NCBI GenBank assembly: GCA_018262985.1
Contig: JADFDI010000006.1
Location: 62,001 to 126,000, forward strand
Source of the DNA: Spirochaetota bacterium
GTDB lineage: Bacteria; Spirochaetota; Spirochaetia; Treponematales; UBA12059
DNA: 64,000 nt
Reading direction: 5' to 3'
The first letter of the stretch is position 1; each line of letters opens with the position of its first letter. Shown here piece by piece: positions 31,377-43,116 of the stretch. The notes beneath the pieces are model-generated. The model saw only the letters and a program-made list of their open reading frames with translations. It ran no database searches and was not told where the DNA came from. Both the position numbers and the translations under genes were made by a program.

Positions 31377-32228
31377 ATGGACACCTACGCCGCCCGACTG
31401 TCGAAGCTTCCCGTCAACCCGAGCATCGCCGCGAAGGTGCTCAAGATGGCCGACTCGCAGGACGTAAGCTTCGGCGCGCTCGAGGAGGTCATCATGGCCG
31501 ACCCGGGCCTGACGGCGCGCATCCTCCGCATCGCCAACTCGGCGCTGTACGCGCGGCAGACCAAGGTGACGCGCCTTCAGACGGCGTTCACCCTGCTCGG
31601 CACCAAGACCATACGGAACCTCGTCATCCTGGCCACGGGCTCGAGCCTGTTCCGCCGCGACCTCGCGTCATCCTTCTACGCCTATTTCTGGACGCACGCA
31701 CTCGCCACGGCGTTCCTCGCGCGCGACCTGGCGGCGCGCTGCGGCTTCGGTCAGCATGCGGAGGAGTGCTTCGTGGCCGGGCTTTTGCACGACGTGGGAC
31801 AGGTGGCTTTCCTGCTCGAAAGTCCCAAGGCGTACGAAGCGCTGGTCCTGGAAGCGCGGCTCAAGGGACGCTGCGTCTCCGAACTGGAAACCGAGGCCTA
31901 CGGCACCGACCACAAGAGGGTCGGCGCAGAGGTGCTGGCATCGTGGTCCTTTCCCGCGGTGTACGTCGACGCCGCGCTCGAGCACGGCTCGCCCAACCCG
32001 GCGTCCGCCTCGAAACAGGTAGTCGCCACGGTGACCGCGGCCGACCTGGTCGGCGCCAATTGGGCGCGCGAACCGGATCCGCCGCGTCCGCTCGCGGGTC
32101 TCGCCCCCTTCCTCGGCTACCTCAGGCTCGGCGCGGACGATTTGGACGCGTGGCAGGCCGAGACGAGGTCGCGCCTCGAGAAGGACCCCTTCTACCTCGG
32201 GTGCCGCGAGCTCATCACGGAAGGATGA
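31377..32228 (+). CDS. HDOD-domain signalling protein
   Basis: 283 residues, nearly all one HDOD domain (LPVNPSIAAKVLKMADSQ, ADPGLTARILRIANSALY, TAFTLLGTKTIRNLVI, LLHDVGQVAFL). HDOD proteins are non-catalytic relatives of HD hydrolases used in bacterial signalling; the HD pair (HD in LLHDVG) is partly kept. It overlaps the end of the convergent TPR/beta-barrel gene by 14 bases and lies beside the Pel locus, but a functional tie is not shown. Confidence 0.92.
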   Translation: MDTYAARLSKLPVNPSIAAKVLKMADSQDVSFGALEEVIMADPGLTARILRIANSALYARQTKVTRLQTAFTLLGTKTIRNLVILATGSSLFRRDLASSFYAYFWTHALATAFLARDLAARCGFGQHAEECFVAGLLHDVGQVAFLLESPKAYEALVLEARLKGRCVSELETEAYGTDHKRVGAEVLASWSFPAVYVDAALEHGSPNPASASKQVVATVTAADLVGANWAREPDPPRPLAGLAPFLGYLRLGADDLDAWQAETRSRLEKDPFYLGCRELITEG

Positions 32229-35200
32229 AGTCCGGCAGCGACACCGCCGTGCCTATCCTCGCCGTGAGCGACCAATAGGCCACGCCCTCCGCGTCACCCG
32301 TCCAGGAACCCGCGGCTTCTCCGTACACCGCGTGGCTGCCTTTGGAGAGTTCGGCGCGGAACGACGCGTCGAAACTCGGCAAGGACGATGCCGCGTCTAC
32401 CCGCGCGCCTGCCCAGAAGCGTGCCGAGAGTCCGAGCACGCGGTTCGATCCGACGCCGATCCAGGAGGACAGCTGCGGTCCCGCCCGCGCCACGAGCGCC
32501 CTGTCGGGGGCGTAGTAGTCGGTGGCGGCGGGATCGGCGGAATCCTCGTAGACCACGTGGCCGCCGAGGCTCGCCACCGTCCAAGGGGAACGGAACAACA
32601 GGAAGGTCGCGGAGCCCTCGCCCAGCGCCGTGAGGAGCATGTTGTCGCCTCCCGCGACGGGCGCGAAAAGCTTCGCCAGCTTTCCGTAGCCCCGGAATCC
32701 GACGGCCGCGAGCGGCCCGGTTGCGGTGAATTCCTTGTAGGCGGCCAGGGTCAGCTCGACGGCGTGCTCGTACCAGGCGTCGCGGCCGGGCAGGAAGGTC
32801 TCGGGCAGCTGGTCGAAGACATAGGCGGCGTTGACCGAGAACGGACCGCCGGACCACGCGAGCGCGGCCCCGGCTTTCGGCGCCACCAGATGGGCGAGCA
32901 GGAGGTCTTCGGGCTCGAAGGCCCGGAACAGGAAGGACTCCTCGCCCCAGAGTCGATTGTCGAGGGTGCCGCCGGCCGCGAGGTCGAGGCGGAGGCCAAG
33001 CTTTTCCAGCGAGAAGCGGAGCCCCGCCTCGATGCCCTGGAGTCCGGCCACGGCAGGCTCGGAGCCGCCGAAAGCGCTGTGGACCCGGAGCGCGTCGATC
33101 GAGTACGAGCCGACGAAGGCGATCTTCCCTTCCAGGTTGGCGACGTAGTCGATGCGGGCGCGAGCCGTGGTGCGGGTTGAATCGATGTCGGTACCCGCGC
33201 GGAATTCGATGCGGTCGGCATGGGCGCTCGCGAGGCGGTTGTAGGAGACGGCCGCGCTCGAGAGGGCCGGATCGATCTGGTCGACGCGGCGGTAGAGTTC
33301 CATCGCCTTCGACCAGTCGCCTGAAAGCTCGTGCGCGCGCGCCAGGGCGAAGGTGGATCCCGAGTCCCAGGGCGCCACGGCGAGGGCGCGGGACAGCTGG
33401 ACCGCCGCGTCCCGCGGGCGCCCGAGGGCGAGGTAGACGTCGGCGAGTTCGCGACGGTCGGCCACGGTCTCGGAGTCGAAACGGTACATGAAAACGAGGA
33501 AGCGCGCGCGGGCGCGGCGATGCAGGGCCTCGACGGCGCGGGCCGCCCGGGCCTCGAGCGCCGTCGCGCCGCGCGCGGCCTCGCGCAGGACGGCGATCGC
33601 GGCGCGCGCCTCTTCCGGCGTCGCTCCGGGCATGAAGAAGGCGCCTTCCGCGACGAAGGCGTCGTTGCCATACTCGAGGGCGAGACCCGCGAGCGCGGAG
33701 GCGTGGGCGAAATAGGCCGACGCATCCGGATCGGCGTCCCCGTCGCCGAAGGAACCCTCTAGCCAGATCCGCGCCTGAGTCCTGGCACGCGCGCCGAGGG
33801 GCAGAAGGGCCGCCGGTTCCGCGGAGCGCGCCGCCCGCTCCGCTCGGCTTGCCACTTCGGCAGGCTTGCGCTCCACGAGCGAGACGCGGTCGAGCAAGGC
33901 GGCGGCGAGGCTCTCGCCCGCCGCCGCGCGGGAAGCGAGTTCGGCCATATCGCCCTCGCGCGGCCAAGCCCAGGAACCGAAACCGCCGAGCAGTTCCGCG
34001 TCGGCGGACGCGCGGGCGGCTTCGGCCTCCGCCGCGTCGAGCGCGCGGACGTACCGGTCGGAGAGCTCGGCGACGCGGTCCCGGGCATGGACGGCTTCGA
34101 GCAGGGCGAGCGCGAGGTCTGTCCCCGCCCGCGCCTTGTTCTCCGCCGCGGAGGCGGCCTTGGCGGCGTCCCTGCCAAGCTCCGCCTTGGCGGCTTCGGC
34201 TTCGGCCTTCTCCCACGCGGCGAGCGCGGCGTCGAGCCGGTCCGCGACCGCGTCCGCCCCGGAGCTCTCGCGCGGGAAGCCGGCCCGGTGGACGGCGAGC
34301 TCGTCGAGCAAGCGCCAGGTCTCGACCAGCTCGCGCTCGAACTCATCGACCAGCAAGTACTGCTTGTTGATGAGGACGGTCCGGGCTTCGGCGGCCGCCT
34401 GCTCGAGCCTGCCGTTCCAGAAGTAGGCGGCGACGAGCTCCTCGCGAAGGCCAAGGTCGTCAGGATTCGCCTCGAGCCGCTCCGAGTACGCGGCGAGCGC
34501 GAGGTCCTTGAGCTCGGCCGCGCGGCGCCGGGCCGCGAGCAGGGCGTCGAGGCGCGGCGAAGGGACGAAGCGCCCGGCGGCTTCCCGTTCGAACGAGCGG
34601 GCGCCTTCGGAATCGCCGAGCGCGAGGCTGGCGGCCGAAGCTAGCAGGTAGAGTTCGAGCTCGTCGGGGAAGCGCCCGATGCCGTCCCGGTACGCGTCCC
34701 TCGCCTCGGTCGGATACCCGTTGACCGCGAAGATCTCGGCGAGAGCCTTCACGCCATTGACGCTCGCGAACGCGGTCGTACGCGCCTCGTCGATCCTCGC
34801 GTTCCCCTCAGACGCTCGTCCCGCCCATAGAAAGGTCAGACCATAATTGACGCGGAGGTTCAAGTCGTCCGGGAAGCGCTCGAGCGCGTCGCGGTAGAAA
34901 CCGAGGGAATCATCGTAGCGTCCGAGCCAGGCGGCCATCTTGGCGGCCTCGGCCCACACCGCCCGGTCGCCGCCGGAAACGCCGAGGAAATCCCGGAAGA
35001 GCCGTAGCCCTTCCTCGCCCTCCCCGCTCCAGACCCGGCTCCGCGCCGAGAGCAGCGTGAAGCGCGGATCGTCGCCGGCCGCGAGCTTGCCGCGCGCGAG
35101 CGTGCGCAGCGCGTTCGCGTGGTCGCCGATCATGCCGTACACCTGGGCCAGGCTCAGATAGGCGTTGCGGTCGGAGGGATTGGCGTCGATGCGCGCCGAG

Positions 35201-35922
35201 TACTGGGCGAGCGTCAAGTAGGGATTGTCGAGGCTGCGATCGGAAAGGTCGCGCGGGAAGCGCTCCGGCAGGACGGAACGGTCAATATCCGCCGAGGCGA
35301 CGGGCGACCCGTCCGCCAGCAGGAAGAAGGCGTCCAGGGCGAGGTACCAGCGCCGGTCGTGGCGGCGGCGTTCGGCCGCCTCGAAGCGCAGAGTGTGCAT
35401 GCCCGCTTCCAGGCTGATGCGATCGGCGGCCACGTACCAGAAACCGCCGACACCGTAGGACTCGACCACGGCCACGTTCTCGCGGTAAAGCGGACGCGGA
35501 GCGCCGCCGTCGACGGATACGCTGACGGGGGAACCGTAGGAAGGCAGGAGCTCGTCCGCCGGACCGGGCAGGCTACCCGCGACGAAGAGCCTGAAGGAAC
35601 CGGCTTCCTCGACGAGCAGCGCGAATTCCGCGTAGAAAGGCGCTCCGGGGGCGTCGCCCTCCCGGTTGAGACGAAGCGTCCGCGAACGGGAGGCGGAATA
35701 GTCGAGCGTCGCTTCGCGCGCGAAATTGGTGGACACCGCGTCCTCCGCCTCGACCCATACGAAACCGGGAGTCTCGGGCGGGAAGACCGGTTCTACGCCG
35801 CCCGATCCTTGGGCGGCGATGGAAGGGCCGAGAGCTGCGAGCGCCGCGAGGACTGCGAGCGCACGCGCGGCCCGATGCGAGTCTCCGGAGAACGTTCGCT
35901 TTCGTTCGTTCATGACCTTCAT
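32215..35922 (-). CDS. PelB-like outer-membrane TPR and beta-barrel protein
   Basis: Large exported protein of 1235 residues. A signal peptide (ALAVLAALAALGPSIAAQ) leads into a beta-rich N-terminal region (VWVEAEDAVSTNFA, VSVSVDGGAPRPLY, MHTLRFEAAERR) that resembles a carbohydrate-binding module. TPR repeats follow at about 240-560 and 830-930 (RNAYLSLAQVYGMIGDHANALRTL), with an Ala/Glu-rich helical stretch between. The last 300 residues alternate short beta-strands (GLRFSLEKLGLRLDLAAGG, AELSKGSHAVYGEAAGSW) as in an outer-membrane barrel. This TPR-plus-barrel design matches PelB, the Pel export pore, and the gene is divergent from pelD by 34 bases. The N-terminal module is an addition. A REP-like repeat encodes GTDL at about residue 600. 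Confidence 0.72.
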   Translation of the reverse strand: MKVMNERKRTFSGDSHRAARALAVLAALAALGPSIAAQGSGGVEPVFPPETPGFVWVEAEDAVSTNFAREATLDYSASRSRTLRLNREGDAPGAPFYAEFALLVEEAGSFRLFVAGSLPGPADELLPSYGSPVSVSVDGGAPRPLYRENVAVVESYGVGGFWYVAADRISLEAGMHTLRFEAAERRRHDRRWYLALDAFFLLADGSPVASADIDRSVLPERFPRDLSDRSLDNPYLTLAQYSARIDANPSDRNAYLSLAQVYGMIGDHANALRTLARGKLAAGDDPRFTLLSARSRVWSGEGEEGLRLFRDFLGVSGGDRAVWAEAAKMAAWLGRYDDSLGFYRDALERFPDDLNLRVNYGLTFLWAGRASEGNARIDEARTTAFASVNGVKALAEIFAVNGYPTEARDAYRDGIGRFPDELELYLLASAASLALGDSEGARSFEREAAGRFVPSPRLDALLAARRRAAELKDLALAAYSERLEANPDDLGLREELVAAYFWNGRLEQAAAEARTVLINKQYLLVDEFERELVETWRLLDELAVHRAGFPRESSGADAVADRLDAALAAWEKAEAEAAKAELGRDAAKAASAAENKARAGTDLALALLEAVHARDRVAELSDRYVRALDAAEAEAARASADAELLGGFGSWAWPREGDMAELASRAAAGESLAAALLDRVSLVERKPAEVASRAERAARSAEPAALLPLGARARTQARIWLEGSFGDGDADPDASAYFAHASALAGLALEYGNDAFVAEGAFFMPGATPEEARAAIAVLREAARGATALEARAARAVEALHRRARARFLVFMYRFDSETVADRRELADVYLALGRPRDAAVQLSRALAVAPWDSGSTFALARAHELSGDWSKAMELYRRVDQIDPALSSAAVSYNRLASAHADRIEFRAGTDIDSTRTTARARIDYVANLEGKIAFVGSYSIDALRVHSAFGGSEPAVAGLQGIEAGLRFSLEKLGLRLDLAAGGTLDNRLWGEESFLFRAFEPEDLLLAHLVAPKAGAALAWSGGPFSVNAAYVFDQLPETFLPGRDAWYEHAVELTLAAYKEFTATGPLAAVGFRGYGKLAKLFAPVAGGDNMLLTALGEGSATFLLFRSPWTVASLGGHVVYEDSADPAATDYYAPDRALVARAGPQLSSWIGVGSNRVLGLSARFWAGARVDAASSLPSFDASFRAELSKGSHAVYGEAAGSWTGDAEGVAYWSLTARIGTAVSLPDFILP
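34113..34126 (-). repeat. REP-like repeat inside the PelB-like gene
   Basis: CGAGGTCTGTCCCC on the plus strand, read in the gene as GGG ACA GAC CTC (GTDL) within an Ala/Glu-rich helix. Confidence 0.75.
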
Positions 35923-35956
35923 CCCCCGCTCGTGGCGATCCGATACTCGTAGCATA

Positions 35957-37384
35957 GTGCGCGCCACGCTGTCTCGCGAACGCCCCGCGGTCGTCGCCGC
36001 GGAAGCCCTCGGAGCGGCCCTGCTCGTCGGGGCCGCCGGCTTCCTGCCGGGCGCCTCGCCAGGATCGTTAGGACTCTACGGACTACCCGCCCTCGCCGCG
36101 GGACCGGTCTTCGCCGCGTTCTACGGCTTCGGCTGGGGCTTCGCGACCTGGCTTCTTTCCTGCGCCTCGGCCTTCCTCCTCGCCCCTCTCCTGGCGGACG
36201 CGTTCGACGCGGCGTTCGTCTCCTCGCTCGCGGGTACGCTCCCCGTTCCCGCCACGGCGTCGATCGCCCTCCTGGCCGCGGCGGGATTCGCCCGGAGCCG
36301 GGCCGACCGCTCCCGCGCGGAGCTGCTCGCCCGCCTCAAGGACGCCGTCGTCAGGTCCTTGCGCCTCGAGCGCGCCACGGAGACCCTGGAGCGGGTCAAC
36401 CGCGAGCTCGAGAATCGCGTGGCGGGGCAAGGCGACTCGGTGACCCTGCTGCACGACTCGGTGCGCAAGCTGGCGAGCCTCAACCTCGACGAAGCCTTGG
36501 CCAGCATCCTCGAAACCGTCGAGCTCTTCGCGGGTGCGAGGAGCGCCTCCATCTGGATACCCGGCGAAGCCGGCGGGCGCCTGAACCCCATCGCCGTAAA
36601 AGGGTGGCGGGCGGGAGAGGAGCGCGACACCGCGCTCGACCCCGAGACGAGCGTGGAAGGCTGGACCTTCCGAAACCGCAAGCCGTATTCGGCGCGCATG
36701 GCTTCCTCGGGCCCGCCCTTCGACCGGCTCGATTGCTCGCGCGCCATCATGGCCTTCCCCCTGGTCATCAAGGGAAAGTCGTGGGCGGTCCTCGTCATCG
36801 AGGATCTCCCCTTCGAACGCTACTCGCTCTACACCGAGAGCCTTCTGGCCATCGTGCTGAGCCTCGCCGAACCCTACCTCAAGACCATCGTCGAGTACGA
36901 AGCGCTCCGCTCGAGGCGCGAGGTCGACGAGGAAACCGGCTTGCCGGGCTTCCCCGTGTTGGCGCGCACGCTCGAACGCGAGCTCGCGACCCTCGGTTAC
37001 GAACAGGCGGCTCTGTCCCTGGTCGTGGTCGAAATGGCGAATTTCGCCGAGCTCCTCGGGAAAGGCAGACAGCGCCCGGAACTGAAACGCCTGGTGGCCG
37101 CCTGCCACCGCATCGTCGATCGCTCGGAAGGCTCGAAATCGCTGGCCTTCCATTTCAGGGAGGACTCCCAGTTGGCGCTGCTCGTCCCGGGCCTGGGCCC
37201 GGACGACGTATCCCTCTACTGCCTCGAGCTGCTCGGCACCCTCGCTGCCCTGCCCTTCGAGATCGGCGGGGAACACGTGCCGTTCGAAGCAATCGTCGGC
37301 TTCGCCTCGGCCGGCGCGGGGGGCGGCGACGCGGAGGCGATGCTCGCGGAAGCGGAGCACCTGCTTTCCCTTCAGAGGATCTAG
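35957..37384 (+). CDS. pelD: PelD-like c-di-GMP-receptor-type membrane protein with degenerate GGDEF
   Basis: 475 residues, close to PelD of Pseudomonas (about 455). Four predicted membrane helices at 11-110, a helical linker (LERVNRELENRVAG), a GAF domain at about 165-310 (SIWIPGEAGGRLNPIAVKGW) and a GGDEF-like fold at about 322-475. At the GGDEF site the sequence reads FREDSQ, so cyclase activity is not expected. The RxxD inhibitory site of c-di-GMP receptors would fall at residues 392-395 and reads GSKS; an RIVD lies at 385-388. Binding is therefore uncertain. PelD anchors the Pel synthase complex in the inner membrane. GTG start has no Shine-Dalgarno sequence but GATACT lies nine bases upstream. 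pelE starts four bases after the stop. Confidence 0.85.
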   Translation: MRATLSRERPAVVAAEALGAALLVGAAGFLPGASPGSLGLYGLPALAAGPVFAAFYGFGWGFATWLLSCASAFLLAPLLADAFDAAFVSSLAGTLPVPATASIALLAAAGFARSRADRSRAELLARLKDAVVRSLRLERATETLERVNRELENRVAGQGDSVTLLHDSVRKLASLNLDEALASILETVELFAGARSASIWIPGEAGGRLNPIAVKGWRAGEERDTALDPETSVEGWTFRNRKPYSARMASSGPPFDRLDCSRAIMAFPLVIKGKSWAVLVIEDLPFERYSLYTESLLAIVLSLAEPYLKTIVEYEALRSRREVDEETGLPGFPVLARTLERELATLGYEQAALSLVVVEMANFAELLGKGRQRPELKRLVAACHRIVDRSEGSKSLAFHFREDSQLALLVPGLGPDDVSLYCLELLGTLAALPFEIGGEHVPFEAIVGFASAGAGGGDAEAMLAEAEHLLSLQRI

Positions 37385-37388
37385 GCCC

Positions 37389-38150
37389 GTGGACACCCTC
37401 GCGACCATCCGTTCGCTCCGCTCAGGCTTCGTGCCGCGCACCCAGGCGCAGGCGTTCGCGGCCTTGAAGCGGGGCTTGGTGGAGGAAGCGGTCTGCGTCT
37501 GGCGCTCGGTGAACGTCCGCCCGATCCTCGAAGAGCCCTGGGACCTGGACGAGATAGAACGGCTGCTCGCCCGAGAACAACTCGACGAGGCGACGGTGCT
37601 CGCGCTGGTGCGCATTTTCGACAGGCTTTCGCGCGGCCCCGACAAGGAAGCCGCTCTCTTCGCCGCGGAGAGTCTCAACGCGCTCGAACTCCGGTACGAA
37701 AGGCGGGTCCAGCGGCTGCGAAAAGCGCTCAAGGCCCGTCCCTCGGCTCAGGCGACGCTCCAGTTGGCTGAGGCCTACCGAGCTCTGTCCCTCGCGTGCG
37801 GTTCCCGGCCCGTGCTCGCACGCTTCTACCTTGGAGAGGCTCTCGCCGCCCTCGACGGGGGCAAGGGCGGCGGCATGTCCGAACGGGACCGGCGCTCGAT
37901 CGCGGTCGCCGCGTCGGGGCTCCTCGTCGAACTCGGGAATCCGGAAGGCGCGCTGGAGAGGCTCGCCTCCCCGCTCGCGCGCACGCCCTCGGATCCGGCG
38001 CTGAGGCTCGCCGAGGCGCGCGCGCGTTTCGCCGCCCGGGACTTCCCCGCGGTCGCCCGGGTCCTCGAGGAAGCCGAACCCATACCCGGCGATCCTGATT
38101 CCGATCGGCTCGCCGTCCTGCGGGACTGCTGGCGGAGGGTGAGTCATTGA
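37389..38150 (+). CDS. pelE: PelE-like TPR protein
   Basis: 253 residues, all helical and TPR-like (ALKRGLVEEAVCVWRSVN, LQLAEAYRALSLACGSRP, LAEARARFAARDFPAVARVLEEAE). It occupies the PelE position between PelD and PelF. Pseudomonas PelE has two N-terminal membrane helices before its TPRs; none is visible here, so it may be a cytoplasmic or PelD-bound form. GTG start. The stop overlaps the TTG start of pelF (TTGA), giving tight coupling. A REP-like repeat copy (CGAGCTCTGTCCC) sits at 37779-37791 within a TPR helix. Confidence 0.78.
   Translation: MDTLATIRSLRSGFVPRTQAQAFAALKRGLVEEAVCVWRSVNVRPILEEPWDLDEIERLLAREQLDEATVLALVRIFDRLSRGPDKEAALFAAESLNALELRYERRVQRLRKALKARPSAQATLQLAEAYRALSLACGSRPVLARFYLGEALAALDGGKGGGMSERDRRSIAVAASGLLVELGNPEGALERLASPLARTPSDPALRLAEARARFAARDFPAVARVLEEAEPIPGDPDSDRLAVLRDCWRRVSH
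37779..37791 (-). repeat. REP-like repeat inside pelE
   Basis: CGAGCTCTGTCCC, coding for part of RALSL. It lies in a plausible TPR helix, so a chance match is less excluded than for other copies. Confidence 0.55.
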
Positions 38151-39664
38151 CGGAAAGGCCGCTCCGCGTATGCCTGGTCCTCGAAGGCTCCTACCCCTAC
38201 ATCACCGGCGGCGTGAGCGCCTGGGTACAGGATCTCGTCACAGGGTTGCCCGACATCGAGTTCAGCCTATTCACGATCTCGCCGAAATCCGGTCAGGAGC
38301 TCCGCTACAAGCTCCCGGCCAACATCGTCGAGCATCGCGACGTCGTGCTCGGATCGGCCGGAGCGGGCCGGGCGCCCCGCGGCGCGACGAAGCGCGCGAT
38401 CGGCGAGACCGTCAGCCAGCATCTGCGCATGTTCGCGGGAGCCGAGCCTTCGATCCGCGCGCTCATCGAAGTCCTGCCCGAGGACATGGACCTTTCGGAC
38501 GGATCGGTCGAGGACCCCCGAGCGTGGGAGCTGATCCGTCGCATGAACCGCCAGAGGAACCCCGCCTATCCCTTCGCCGACTACTTCTGGGCCTGGCGCT
38601 CGGCGCACTCGATGCTGTTCGACGTGCTCAGGGCCAAGGCGCCGGAGGCCGACCTCTACCACGCCATATCGACCGGCTTCGCCGGGCTCGCGGCCCTGGC
38701 CGCGGGGCAGCGCAGGGGCAAACCCTTCCTGCTCACCGAGCACGGGCTCTACCACAAGGAACGAGAGATCGAGATCCGGAAATCCTCCTTCATCCGCGGC
38801 TACCAGCGCGATATGTGGATCAAGGTCTACAAGCGCATCTCCGCGGTCTGCTACCGCGAGGCGGACGGCATCACCTCGCTCTTCGAGGAGAACCGGCGCA
38901 AGCAGCTCGAGCTCGGGGCCGCCCCCGAGAAGTGCCGGGTCATCCCGAACGGCATCGACCTTTCGCGCTTCGCCGCGGTGATCCGCGCGCCGCGGCCAGG
39001 CTTCCACGTGGGCCTCGTGGGACGCATCGTCCCCATCAAGGATGTGAAGACCTTCGTCTCCGCGGCCCGCATCGTACTCGACAAGCTCCCCGAGGCGCGC
39101 TTCTACGCCATCGGCCCCACCGACGAGGACCCCGAGTACTACGAGGAGTGCGTCGCGCTGGCCGAACGGCTCCGCGTCTCCGACCGGCTCGAGTTCACGG
39201 GGCGGAAGAACGTGCTCGAGTACTACGCGTTCCTCGACCTCATGCTCCTGACGAGCGTGCGCGAGGCCCAGCCGCTGGTCATCATCGAGGGCTGGGCGGC
39301 GGGCGTGCCGACGGCGGCCACCCGGGTCGGCAACGTGCCCGAGATGCTCGACGACGACGACCGCTTCCTCGCACCTTCAAAGGACGCCGGGAAGCTCGCC
39401 GAATCCGTGCTCTGGGCGCACCGCCATCCCGCCGAGCTCGCCGAGATCAACAAGCGCAACCGGCAGAAAGCCTTCGCGCGTCACGACCGCTCGGCCATGC
39501 TCGACGCCTACCGAGCCTTTTACGAAGAATCGGGCGCGCGCGGGGACAGGGCTCGCGGGGACAGGGCTCGCGGGGACAGAGATTGGGCGGTCGAGCGACT
39601 GGAAGGCGCCACGCCCCCCGGGGACGGAGCTCCGAGTTCCGGGGAGGCCCCATGGCGGGCATAG
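38147..39664 (+). CDS. pelF: PelF glycosyltransferase
   Basis: GT4-family enzyme predicted to polymerise the Pel polysaccharide from UDP-sugars in the cytoplasm. 505 residues, as in other PelF proteins. The N-terminal LVLEGSYPYITGGVSAWVQDL is the PelF hallmark; the GT-B donor site appears as GRIVPIKDVKTFVSAARIV and EAQPLVIIEGWAAGVP. TTG start with GGAGGG upstream, overlapping the pelE stop. The last 40 residues are not normal PelF: three tandem 15-base repeats encode GDRAR-GDRAR-GDRDW, followed by another variant, all derived from the REP-like motif. The tail overlaps pelG by 13 bases. Confidence 0.95.
   Translation: MTERPLRVCLVLEGSYPYITGGVSAWVQDLVTGLPDIEFSLFTISPKSGQELRYKLPANIVEHRDVVLGSAGAGRAPRGATKRAIGETVSQHLRMFAGAEPSIRALIEVLPEDMDLSDGSVEDPRAWELIRRMNRQRNPAYPFADYFWAWRSAHSMLFDVLRAKAPEADLYHAISTGFAGLAALAAGQRRGKPFLLTEHGLYHKEREIEIRKSSFIRGYQRDMWIKVYKRISAVCYREADGITSLFEENRRKQLELGAAPEKCRVIPNGIDLSRFAAVIRAPRPGFHVGLVGRIVPIKDVKTFVSAARIVLDKLPEARFYAIGPTDEDPEYYEECVALAERLRVSDRLEFTGRKNVLEYYAFLDLMLLTSVREAQPLVIIEGWAAGVPTAATRVGNVPEMLDDDDRFLAPSKDAGKLAESVLWAHRHPAELAEINKRNRQKAFARHDRSAMLDAYRAFYEESGARGDRARGDRARGDRDWAVERLEGATPPGDGAPSSGEAPWRA
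39541..39633 (+). repeat. Tandem REP-like repeats at the pelF 3' end
   Basis: CGGGGACAGGGCTCG occurs twice in direct tandem (39541-39570), followed by CGGGGACAGAGATTG (39571-39585) and GGGGACGGAGCTCC (39620-39633). The 15-base period keeps the reading frame and writes the C-terminal tail of PelF just upstream of the pelG ribosome site. Confidence 0.9.
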
Positions 39665-41019
39665 GCTTCGAACTAAGGCGCGTCATCGGCACGCGGGGCG
39701 TCTCGCGGAGCCTCGGCGCGGCCCTGTCGGGCGTCATGGTGGTGGCCGGGCCCTGGCTCACCACCATACTCGCGGTCAGCGCGTCGCGCCTCCTCTTCGC
39801 GCGCGGCGGCTCGCCCTGGGCGCCTCAGTTCCAGGCCGCGGTGGTCTACGCCTACGCGGTCTCGCTCGCTCTCTTCGCAGGTCCCCAGCACCTGTTCACC
39901 CGCATCGTCGCGGACCTGATCTGGGAAGGGAAGCGGCGGGAGGGAGCGCGCTGGCTCGTACGCTTCGCCTCGTTCGCGACCCTGGCTTCCGCGGTCCTCG
40001 GCATCGTCGCCATGGCCTTCCTGCCGGTGAGCGTTCCGGGAGCCTGGGCCTACCGCGGGGCATGGGCGCTCCTCTTCGCCGCCATCAACGCGCTCTGGAT
40101 GGTCATGCTTTTCGTTTCATTGCTCAGGCGCTACCTCCAGGTGGCCCTGGTCTTCGCCGGAGGCATGGCGGCGTCCGTGTCGCTCGCCGCGCTGGCGCCT
40201 ACGTCGTGGGGACCGGCGGGGCCCGTGCTGGGCTACGCCGTCGGCCATGCGCTGGCGGCCGTCGGCCTCCTGGCCCTGAGCCTCGCGGCCTTCCCTCCCG
40301 CGCCCGCCCCGAAGCCCTGGAAAACGATCGGCACGTACCTCGGGAAACGCGGCGCCCTGGTGCTGTCCGGCGCGTTTTACTACCTCGGGCATTGGGCGGA
40401 CAAGTTCGCCTTCTGGATCAGCCGCGGTACTCCGGTGGAGGGAACCCCGTTCGCGCTTTACGAGCGCTACGACCTTTCCGTCTACCTCGCGGGCCTCGTC
40501 CTGGTGCCCGGGCTCGTCTACTTCACCGTCTGGACGGAGACCGGCGTCGCCTCGTCGATACGGCGCTTCCTCCGGATCGTGGGGCGCGGAGCGGTCGATG
40601 ACATATCCGAAGCCCGCGACCGGCTCCGGGGGGAGGTCTTCGGCGAGCTCAAATCCCTCTTCCTCTTCCAGCTGCTTTTCTCGGCCGCGGCTGCGGCTTG
40701 GTTGCTTCGCTCGCCGGGGGAAGCGTCGACCCTGACCATCATCGCGCTCGGCGGCGCCATGCTTCAGCTGGTGCTCATGGCGTCGATCAACGTCCTGTAT
40801 TACTTCGAACTGCAGGGACGCGCGTTCGCGGCCGCCGCCGCTTTCCTCGCCCTCAACGCGCTCGTCTTCCCGCCGATCGCAGAAACCTTTCAAGGTCTGT
40901 CCCCGGGCGCAGGATACCTGGTCTCGGCCGGCATCGCGAGCCTGATCGCCCTGTCGCTCCTCGCGCAGGCCCTGCCGGCCACCGACCGCGCGCTCTTCCT
41001 CCGGGCGGTCAAGCGTTGA
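39652..41019 (+). CDS. pelG: PelG inner-membrane polysaccharide transporter
   Basis: 455 residues, the expected size (Pseudomonas 456), with about 12 membrane segments of the MOP flippase superfamily. The N-terminal MAGIGFELRR is the PelG signature; the loop YLGHWADKFAFWIS is also characteristic. PelG works with PelD/E/F to move Pel across the inner membrane. ATG 39652 has GGGGAGG five bases upstream, inside the end of pelF. A REP-like repeat (AAGGTCTGTCCCC, 40892-40904) lies in a loop and reads QGLSP at about residue 414-418. Confidence 0.95.
   Translation: MAGIGFELRRVIGTRGVSRSLGAALSGVMVVAGPWLTTILAVSASRLLFARGGSPWAPQFQAAVVYAYAVSLALFAGPQHLFTRIVADLIWEGKRREGARWLVRFASFATLASAVLGIVAMAFLPVSVPGAWAYRGAWALLFAAINALWMVMLFVSLLRRYLQVALVFAGGMAASVSLAALAPTSWGPAGPVLGYAVGHALAAVGLLALSLAAFPPAPAPKPWKTIGTYLGKRGALVLSGAFYYLGHWADKFAFWISRGTPVEGTPFALYERYDLSVYLAGLVLVPGLVYFTVWTETGVASSIRRFLRIVGRGAVDDISEARDRLRGEVFGELKSLFLFQLLFSAAAAAWLLRSPGEASTLTIIALGGAMLQLVLMASINVLYYFELQGRAFAAAAAFLALNALVFPPIAETFQGLSPGAGYLVSAGIASLIALSLLAQALPATDRALFLRAVKR
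40892..40904 (-). repeat. REP-like repeat inside pelG
   Basis: AAGGTCTGTCCCC, located in a short loop between the last membrane helices (ETFQGLSPGAGYL). Confidence 0.7.
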
Positions 41020-41121: not shown

Positions 41122-43116
41122 TTACCAATTGAATGTATTGTCCTTGCTCTCGTTGTACTTGACGAAAACCGCCGCGCCATCGAGGGCGGTGTCTAGGACA
41201 TTCACTCCGGTCACCTTGCCGTCGAGTCCGAAGTACCCATCGCGGGCGCGGTAGATGTCCGGCAACTGCGATCCGACAAGCAGGTCGGAATCGTTCGAAT
41301 GGTAGGCGGAGACGGTCGGCGTACCCGATGCGTCGAGGGCTCCATTTATATACAGATTGATGTACGGAGCCCCGGAACTCGGAGCGGCATCCCAGGTAGC
41401 GACCAAGTGGTACCAAGTTCCGCGGTTAAGATAGATTGAACTGACCACCGAGTCGTAGGTCGAACTATCGGAACCGTGGTCGAGCACGATGCCTACTTGA
41501 CCCCTGCGCCCCCAACCTTGGAGCGAGAAGGCCTCGTCGGCGAAGTTTAATTCGACACCTTTATGGACGATGCCGGCGGACTCGGTGTACTTGGCGATAT
41601 AGACCCAGGCCTCAACGGTACCCCGGACACCCATGTTCGATGTCTGCGTTACTTCCGCATAGGGAATCAGGGTGCCCATTGTGCGGGCCCCGAGGAAAGT
41701 CGAGACGCTGCTGTCAGCGAGCACGTTGGATGCGGGCGCGCCTTCCACGAGCCTGGTATCTGTCCCCGTGAGAATCGATACATATAGCGTGGTGAGCGGC
41801 TCGGAAAGACCAATGGCTTCCGATGCGGTGAGCGCGAAGCCCAAGATGCCGTCGCTGTCCGGGAGGTCCATTTGCTGCTCGCGAACGAAAACCGAGGCAT
41901 TTGAATCCTCGGCCAAGATCTCCGCGGCCATGCCGGTCGGTGCGAAAAAAGTCGAGTCGGCCAGACTGAAAGCCAGCGCTTCGCTGTCAATCTGCTCGAG
42001 AATGAAATCGCGGAGTCCCGCGGCATTTACCACGCGCGTGCGCATCCGCGATGTGAGCGTTCCCGTACCAGCAGCTATGTAGTAATCGTCGGGGGGGGTG
42101 CCCGTCGTTCCAAGCGCGTACACTACCCGCTGGCGGAACACCGACTCGGCGAGCGTTTCGTGAACGGATCCGACGGTGATTCCGGAGACTGTGTCCGCGA
42201 AATCGCCGGACTCAGTCGTGTAGACCGAGAGCGTCCGTTCAAAACTGGCAGTGTATGCGGTGTAGGTATTGGTGTCCGGGTCAGCCACCTCGGTATAGAA
42301 TCGGACGCCGAAGATGGTCTGGTTGAGCGAGCCAGCCCAGAACCAGTAGTTCGGATTGCTTGCCGGTGTCACGTAGTACATGACCACCGATGAGTACATG
42401 ACGTTCGGATCGGTACTCGAGGCGGGCACGAAGGCCTGCGAGAGGTCGAGGGACCCATCGATGTCGAATGCGGCCGGTGAGAATTTCAGGCCGCCGGCAG
42501 TGCTCGCCGAAACGATGGTCTCGGTGCGCTTGGTACCGTCGCGGAACGTGAGTTCCATTTTCTCGCGGTGCTTCTGGTCCTGGGCCCAGGTAGCATCCAC
42601 GATGGGGTCGTCGTCGGTCCAGTCGCCGTCCGGATTGGTAAAATCGCCGGAAGTGTCTCCGTCACGGACGAAATACTCCTCCACGTAGCTCGCCCGAAGA
42701 TCCGAGGAGGGAAAGGTGGTCGTCACGACGATGCGGTAGACCTTGACGGTCGGTTCGTCGTGCTCCAGCGTCGCCGTGAAGCTTGTCGTCTGCCCCGGCT
42801 CGGGGTAGTTCGGGAAAGTTTTCGGCTGCAGGTCCGAGAAAAGCACGGACTCAATCAGCCGGTCGACCGGCACGGTCGCCCGGGCGGCGCCCGAGTCCGC
42901 GGAGCGCGGGAGGAAGGGGGTGACGGCGCGGGCGACGTCGCCGGAGGGGGCGCCGCCGCGTTCGGCCCAGTAGCTCGACATGAACACCTTCGAGAAGGAT
43001 TCGAGCTGGGCGTCGGTGGGGGTGTCGATCAGGGGATCGCCGGTTCCGAACAGGGTGCAGGAACCGAGGGCGACGAGCAGGGCGGGCGCCGCGAGGAGCG
43101 CGGTGACGGTCTTCAT
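41122..43116 (-). CDS. LamG-domain lipoprotein
   Basis: 664-residue surface or periplasmic lipoprotein. Signal peptide with lipobox (LVALGSC). Residues 30-470 are beta-rich, with no known fold; the C-terminal 490-650 fits a concanavalin/LamG jelly-roll (GVRGTVEAWVYIAKYTESAGIVHKG, RGTWYHLVATWDA, INLYINGALDASGT, YFGLDGKVTGVNVLDTAL). LamG domains bind sugars or proteins. Base composition is clearly less GC-rich than the flanking genes, a sign of foreign origin or relaxed selection. It follows the Pel operon on the opposite strand; a link to the polysaccharide is possible but unproved. GGTAGAAG lies before the ATG. Confidence 0.78.
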   Translation of the reverse strand: MKTVTALLAAPALLVALGSCTLFGTGDPLIDTPTDAQLESFSKVFMSSYWAERGGAPSGDVARAVTPFLPRSADSGAARATVPVDRLIESVLFSDLQPKTFPNYPEPGQTTSFTATLEHDEPTVKVYRIVVTTTFPSSDLRASYVEEYFVRDGDTSGDFTNPDGDWTDDDPIVDATWAQDQKHREKMELTFRDGTKRTETIVSASTAGGLKFSPAAFDIDGSLDLSQAFVPASSTDPNVMYSSVVMYYVTPASNPNYWFWAGSLNQTIFGVRFYTEVADPDTNTYTAYTASFERTLSVYTTESGDFADTVSGITVGSVHETLAESVFRQRVVYALGTTGTPPDDYYIAAGTGTLTSRMRTRVVNAAGLRDFILEQIDSEALAFSLADSTFFAPTGMAAEILAEDSNASVFVREQQMDLPDSDGILGFALTASEAIGLSEPLTTLYVSILTGTDTRLVEGAPASNVLADSSVSTFLGARTMGTLIPYAEVTQTSNMGVRGTVEAWVYIAKYTESAGIVHKGVELNFADEAFSLQGWGRRGQVGIVLDHGSDSSTYDSVVSSIYLNRGTWYHLVATWDAAPSSGAPYINLYINGALDASGTPTVSAYHSNDSDLLVGSQLPDIYRARDGYFGLDGKVTGVNVLDTALDGAAVFVKYNESKDNTFNW

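Follow-up and report, generated by a model that had tools for sequence, protein, structure and literature searches.

A Pel-like exopolysaccharide locus of spirochaete type without detectable PelA or PelC homologues

The locus lies in a 64,000-nucleotide stretch (hereafter the window) of contig JADFDI010000006.1, from the draft genome of a Spirochaetota bacterium. Four genes, pelD, pelE, pelF and pelG, follow one another on the plus strand at 35957-41019. The first-pass annotation had described them as contiguous and overlapping, and this was confirmed: a gap of 4 bases separates pelD from pelE, pelE and pelF overlap by 4 bases, and pelF and pelG by 13. Back to back with pelD, on the minus strand, is the gene for a PelB-like outer-membrane exporter (32215-35922), whose 3' end is overlapped by a plus-strand gene encoding an HDOD-domain protein (31377-32228; PF08668, 1.8e-50). 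On the other side, a lipoprotein gene is found on the minus strand (41122-43116). The earlier gene list was correct for pelDEFG and the PelB-like gene, and had overlooked these last two linked genes.

Assignment of the core genes was made with family profiles. PelF (38147-39664) reached 340.6 bits against NF038011, for a cut-off of 100 (E = 1.9e-101), which identifies it as the Pel GT4 glycosyltransferase, that is, the polysaccharide polymerase. PelG (39652-41019) reached 245 bits against PF16933, for a cut-off of 29 (1.7e-72), and is the Pel inner-membrane transporter. PelD (about 35957-37384; the GTG at 35957 is the likely start, the ATG at 35912 a possible one) combines membrane segments with a GAF domain (PF01590, 3e-6) and with a GGDEF domain that is degenerate and was recognised by a profile match to the diguanylate cyclase 4URS (2.6e-6). 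The PelD GGDEF family PF16963, which does match Pseudoalteromonas PelD, gave no match in the host genome, and the same search was silent in every control genome. PelE (37389-38150) is a soluble TPR-type protein whose counterpart in canonical PelE is the C-terminal portion; the profile of spirochaete PelEs matches Pseudoalteromonas PelE at about 1e-11. As the first reading had noted, no membrane helix is predicted in it. The same holds for 49 of the 52 PelEs of the spirochaete set, while canonical PelEs have one to three. A galE-type epimerase, which is a generic enzyme, is present in the genome.

The RxxD motif of the c-di-GMP site is present in all three canonical PelDs used for the alignment. 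None of the spirochaete PelDs aligned has it at the corresponding position, where a motif of the H-[FY]-[KR] type is common. The alignment suggests that PelD here may not be under the usual c-di-GMP control. Of the 34 divergent loci, 22 have an HDOD gene adjoining the pel genes, and in seven of the eight co-directional operons this gene immediately precedes pelD. Its product is a candidate partner of PelD and a candidate new regulator of Pel.

The PelB-like protein is 1235 residues long from its likely start (the open reading frame itself opens at 35967) and has TPR matches in Pfam. After a signal peptide, an AlphaFold2 model, built with nine relatives in the alignment (mean pLDDT 79), predicts the following order: a CBM6-like beta-sandwich (residues 19-168; 35314-35763, minus strand), a TPR/helical solenoid and a 16-strand beta-barrel (residues 868-1194; 32236-33216, minus strand), the barrel being assigned from secondary structure and structural matches. 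Structure prediction had been proposed as a check on the barrel, and the model contains it, so that both the TPR domain and the 16-strand outer-membrane barrel expected of a PelB are predicted. The architecture claimed earlier, with an added carbohydrate-binding-like module at the N-terminus, is thus supported, the resemblance of this module to CBM6 being weak: CBM_6 was matched in 6 of 37 members of the exporter family (best E = 0.0012), and a beta-agarase chain matched the module below threshold.

In VIA-align comparisons the exporter model scored highest with PgaA (Z = 27.0), followed by BcsC (24.3) and PelB (9h80, 23.6). It gave no match to the PelB barrel family PF24604, which matches Pseudoalteromonas PelB at 2.1e-35, and in a profile comparison with canonical PelB the TPRs alone were aligned. 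The protein is therefore placed among exporters of the PgaA/BcsC/PelB kind, and according to the model it occupies the place of PelB; descent from PelB is not implied.

Homologous loci were collected by scanning genome contigs with an alignment of the PelB-like exporter, and the 70 loci found were annotated with profiles built in this analysis. As the patterns used derive from this exporter subfamily, the scan is blind to other forms of the locus. All but three of the 70 bear spirochaete names, the others being named only 'bacterium'. The exporter carrying a carbohydrate-binding module, which might have passed for a local oddity, is the usual form across these spirochaete-type loci. Three of them (L095, L098 and L117) have the exporter without pelDEFG within the contig stretch examined. 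Another carrier of the locus (L080) is a MAG labelled Gracilinema caldarium.

The protein encoded beyond pelG has a lipobox (LGSC), a conserved domain at the N-terminus and, at the C-terminus, a LamG/pentraxin-like domain (Laminin_G_3, 6.1e-15; pentraxin 3FLP, 8.2e-5). Among 57 relatives (11 with PelG, 46 without), it was present in 8 of the 11 and in a single one of the 46, whose genome is fragmented and which is of the same genus. Its N-terminal domain is shared with a lipoprotein devoid of LamG (hhalign probability 95.5, E = 1.5e-8), which other loci have next to pelG or to the operon. The structure model of the lipoprotein was poor (pLDDT 50), and with this model as query Foldseek returned no match below 0.001.

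The distribution of this family was compared with that of PelADA, the deacetylase of the Bacillus cereus system, over the 30 complete loci, in which both flanks are present. A family member was found in 17 of the 20 loci without PelADA and in one of the 10 with it (one-sided hypergeometric P of about 1.3e-4, a value that ignores relatedness among the 30 loci); three complete loci had neither. A strict mutual exclusion between the LamG lipoprotein and PelADA was considered and dropped, as the family is wider and locus L102 has both. We consider the LamG lipoprotein to be probably a polymer binder at the outer membrane, acting as a surface anchor or as an export partner.

The host genome is a draft of 3.44 Mb in 22 contigs, with a completeness of 99.8%. 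The nearest full-length named relative belongs to a Spirochaetales MAG (76% identity for the PelB-like protein), and the spirochaete origin that had been supposed is supported. The first-pass annotation had reported neither PelA nor PelC near the genes. This was borne out, and extended to the entire genome: profiles built from three sequences each found neither protein, and no pelABC elsewhere, while both recovered the positive control (W01, a control plasmid); the PelC search covered 10 genomes. Profile searches for GH114 and for DUF2194/PelADA were equally negative in the host genome, and PelC was absent from the spirochaete loci examined. DUF2194 is the relevant deacetylase family, since a spirochaete DUF2194 protein matches structure 9ZAU (5.6e-54), which is that of B. 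cereus PelADA (PMC13254593).

A class-wide survey was carried out on 297 spirochaete genomes, each at least 85% complete, in which PelG and DUF2194 were scored against cut-offs. PelG was found in 54 genomes and DUF2194 in 24, of which 23 had both (hypergeometric P = 2e-18). The locus is therefore not rare in spirochaetes, which had first been taken as an unusual lineage for Pel. The absence of PelA noted earlier holds for this genome and does not hold for spirochaete Pel loci generally, 23 of the 54 PelG genomes having DUF2194/PelADA. In the other 31, the host included, no PelADA is detectable anywhere in the genome. No relative of PelG was found in viral contigs.

The spirochaete-type locus can be described as follows: an exporter bearing the CBM6-like module, pelDEFG, a PelE mostly devoid of helices, a PelD without RxxD, no PelC and, often, an HDOD gene. 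In a subset of loci, a PelADA-type gene follows the exporter gene. The spirochaete PelADA-type proteins (L072, L086, L108 and L132) have about 800 to 870 residues, compared to 610 for the B. cereus protein. Two deep-branching loci, L132 (14814-17432, 19071-19970) and L133 (14865-17486, 17578-18402), combine a PelADA-type gene with a distinct PelA-hydrolase-like one. Published work describes Pel loci with a rearranged or split pelB in Gram-positives, Thermotogae and others (PMC7112168, PMC7112194). Our literature search returned no paper combining PelF, PelG and spirochaetes, and none describing spirochaete Pel.

The barrel of P. aeruginosa PelB has an acidic interior, which suits a cationic polymer (PMC12141448). 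The median net charge of the predicted barrel strands was about -9 in loci with PelADA, compared to about -1 in loci without it (Mann-Whitney, P = 6e-6), a difference that is suggestive only, because the PelADA state changes just three times on the tree, leaving at most three independent pairs for the test. More acidic barrel strands thus appear to accompany PelADA, in a phylogenetically confounded manner.

Taken together, these results lead us to propose, with moderate confidence, a functional Pel-like exopolysaccharide system of spirochaete type that works without PelA and PelC, its polymer not being deacetylated by PelA and the lipoprotein serving as anchor or export partner. PelF would polymerise the sugar at the inner membrane under the control of PelD and PelE, and PelG would carry the polymer across this membrane. 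The PelB-like protein, which has a CBM6-like module of its own and a TPR solenoid, would then guide it through the 16-strand barrel in the outer membrane, where the LamG lipoprotein would probably bind it. Since the genome search revealed no deacetylase of the PelA type, export without partial deacetylation is most likely, and the chain that leaves the cell would be neutral and probably of the GalNAc type. We infer this chemistry, as well as the export route, an assembly of the exporter that dispenses with PelC, and the role given to the lipoprotein. Neither P. aeruginosa nor B. cereus yields detectable Pel when the deacetylase is missing (PMC13254593, PMC10269871). A route that dispenses with this enzyme would be exceptional, and for this reason our confidence goes no higher. 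More tentatively, the scheme may apply to a large spirochaete group, with a fully N-acetylated, neutral Pel, a PelC-independent exporter, a dedicated LamG lipoprotein taking over surface attachment, and an acidic barrel lining that was relaxed once the cationic charge had been lost.

The need for a deacetylase in both studied systems also speaks for the first alternative, namely deacetylation of the polymer by an enzyme that is unlinked or was not recognised, the product being ordinary Pel. Also in its favour is a propeller protein with a polysaccharide-deacetylase-like domain (G000:C8:15719-17791; L053), a Treponematales-wide fusion that is the sole PF01522 protein of the host genome. It was ruled out as a substitute for PelA: it is present in 46 of the 57 relatives, mostly PelG-negative, and thus occurs with or without pel, and its usual metal-binding histidines are missing, GHEVGNMFFTTYD standing in place of the H-x3-H metal motif (by eye). 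Moreover, no homologue of PelA, GH114 or DUF2194 was found anywhere in the genome, and the strands of the barrel are not as acidic as those of loci with PelADA. We regard ordinary Pel as somewhat unlikely here.

It may also be that the relatives of PelF and PelG were kept for a different polysaccharide, in which PelA and PelC play no part. The structural score of the exporter, higher with PgaA than with PelB, its lack of a PF24604 match and the missing RxxD of PelD would all agree with another glycan. However, the same exporter accompanies PelADA in sister loci, together with PelD, PelE, PelF and PelG, and the B. cereus homologue of that PelADA acts on alpha-1,4-GalNAc oligomers (PMC13254593), which makes this explanation improbable.

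The locus could also be a remnant, incomplete or in decay, or PelA and PelC could have been lost in the gaps of a 22-contig draft. This deserves very little credence given the near-complete genome, the 31 PelG genomes missing PelADA, a conserved synteny, and a dN/dS of 0.07 to 0.19 against the sister genome in all seven genes, which indicates purifying selection: these genes are not decaying.

The preferred reading, a Pel-like system without PelA and PelC, bears on two rules. A deacetylase is held essential in both studied Pel systems, and the PelC lipoprotein is a hallmark of Gram-negative Pel (PMC12141448); here, a widespread group keeps synthase and exporter under purifying selection yet lacks both, so that both rules become testable. 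Loci with and without PelADA also provide natural pairs for asking whether the charge of the polymer shapes the export channel.

The locus of the window is a variant of known Pel systems. With the pelABCDEFG type of P. aeruginosa it shares PelF, PelG, a PelD composed of membrane segments, GAF and degenerate GGDEF, the TPR part of PelE, and an exporter made of TPRs and a 16-strand barrel. It differs from that type in what is missing (PelA, PelC, the membrane helices of PelE and the RxxD of PelD) and in what is added or displaced, that is, the CBM6-like module of the exporter, an exporter gene on the opposite strand, the lipoprotein and the HDOD gene. The PelDEFG core is also that of the Gram-positive B. 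cereus pelDEADAFG, of whose PelADA sister spirochaete loci have a clear homologue; the clade of the host is without PelADA, and has an outer-membrane exporter that is missing in Gram-positives. Finally, the TPR solenoid and 16-strand barrel are those of PgaA and BcsC, the exporters of PNAG and cellulose, which gave the top structural Z-scores; unlike them, the exporter has a CBM6-like module at its N-terminus and is linked to PelDEFG rather than to pga or bcs genes.
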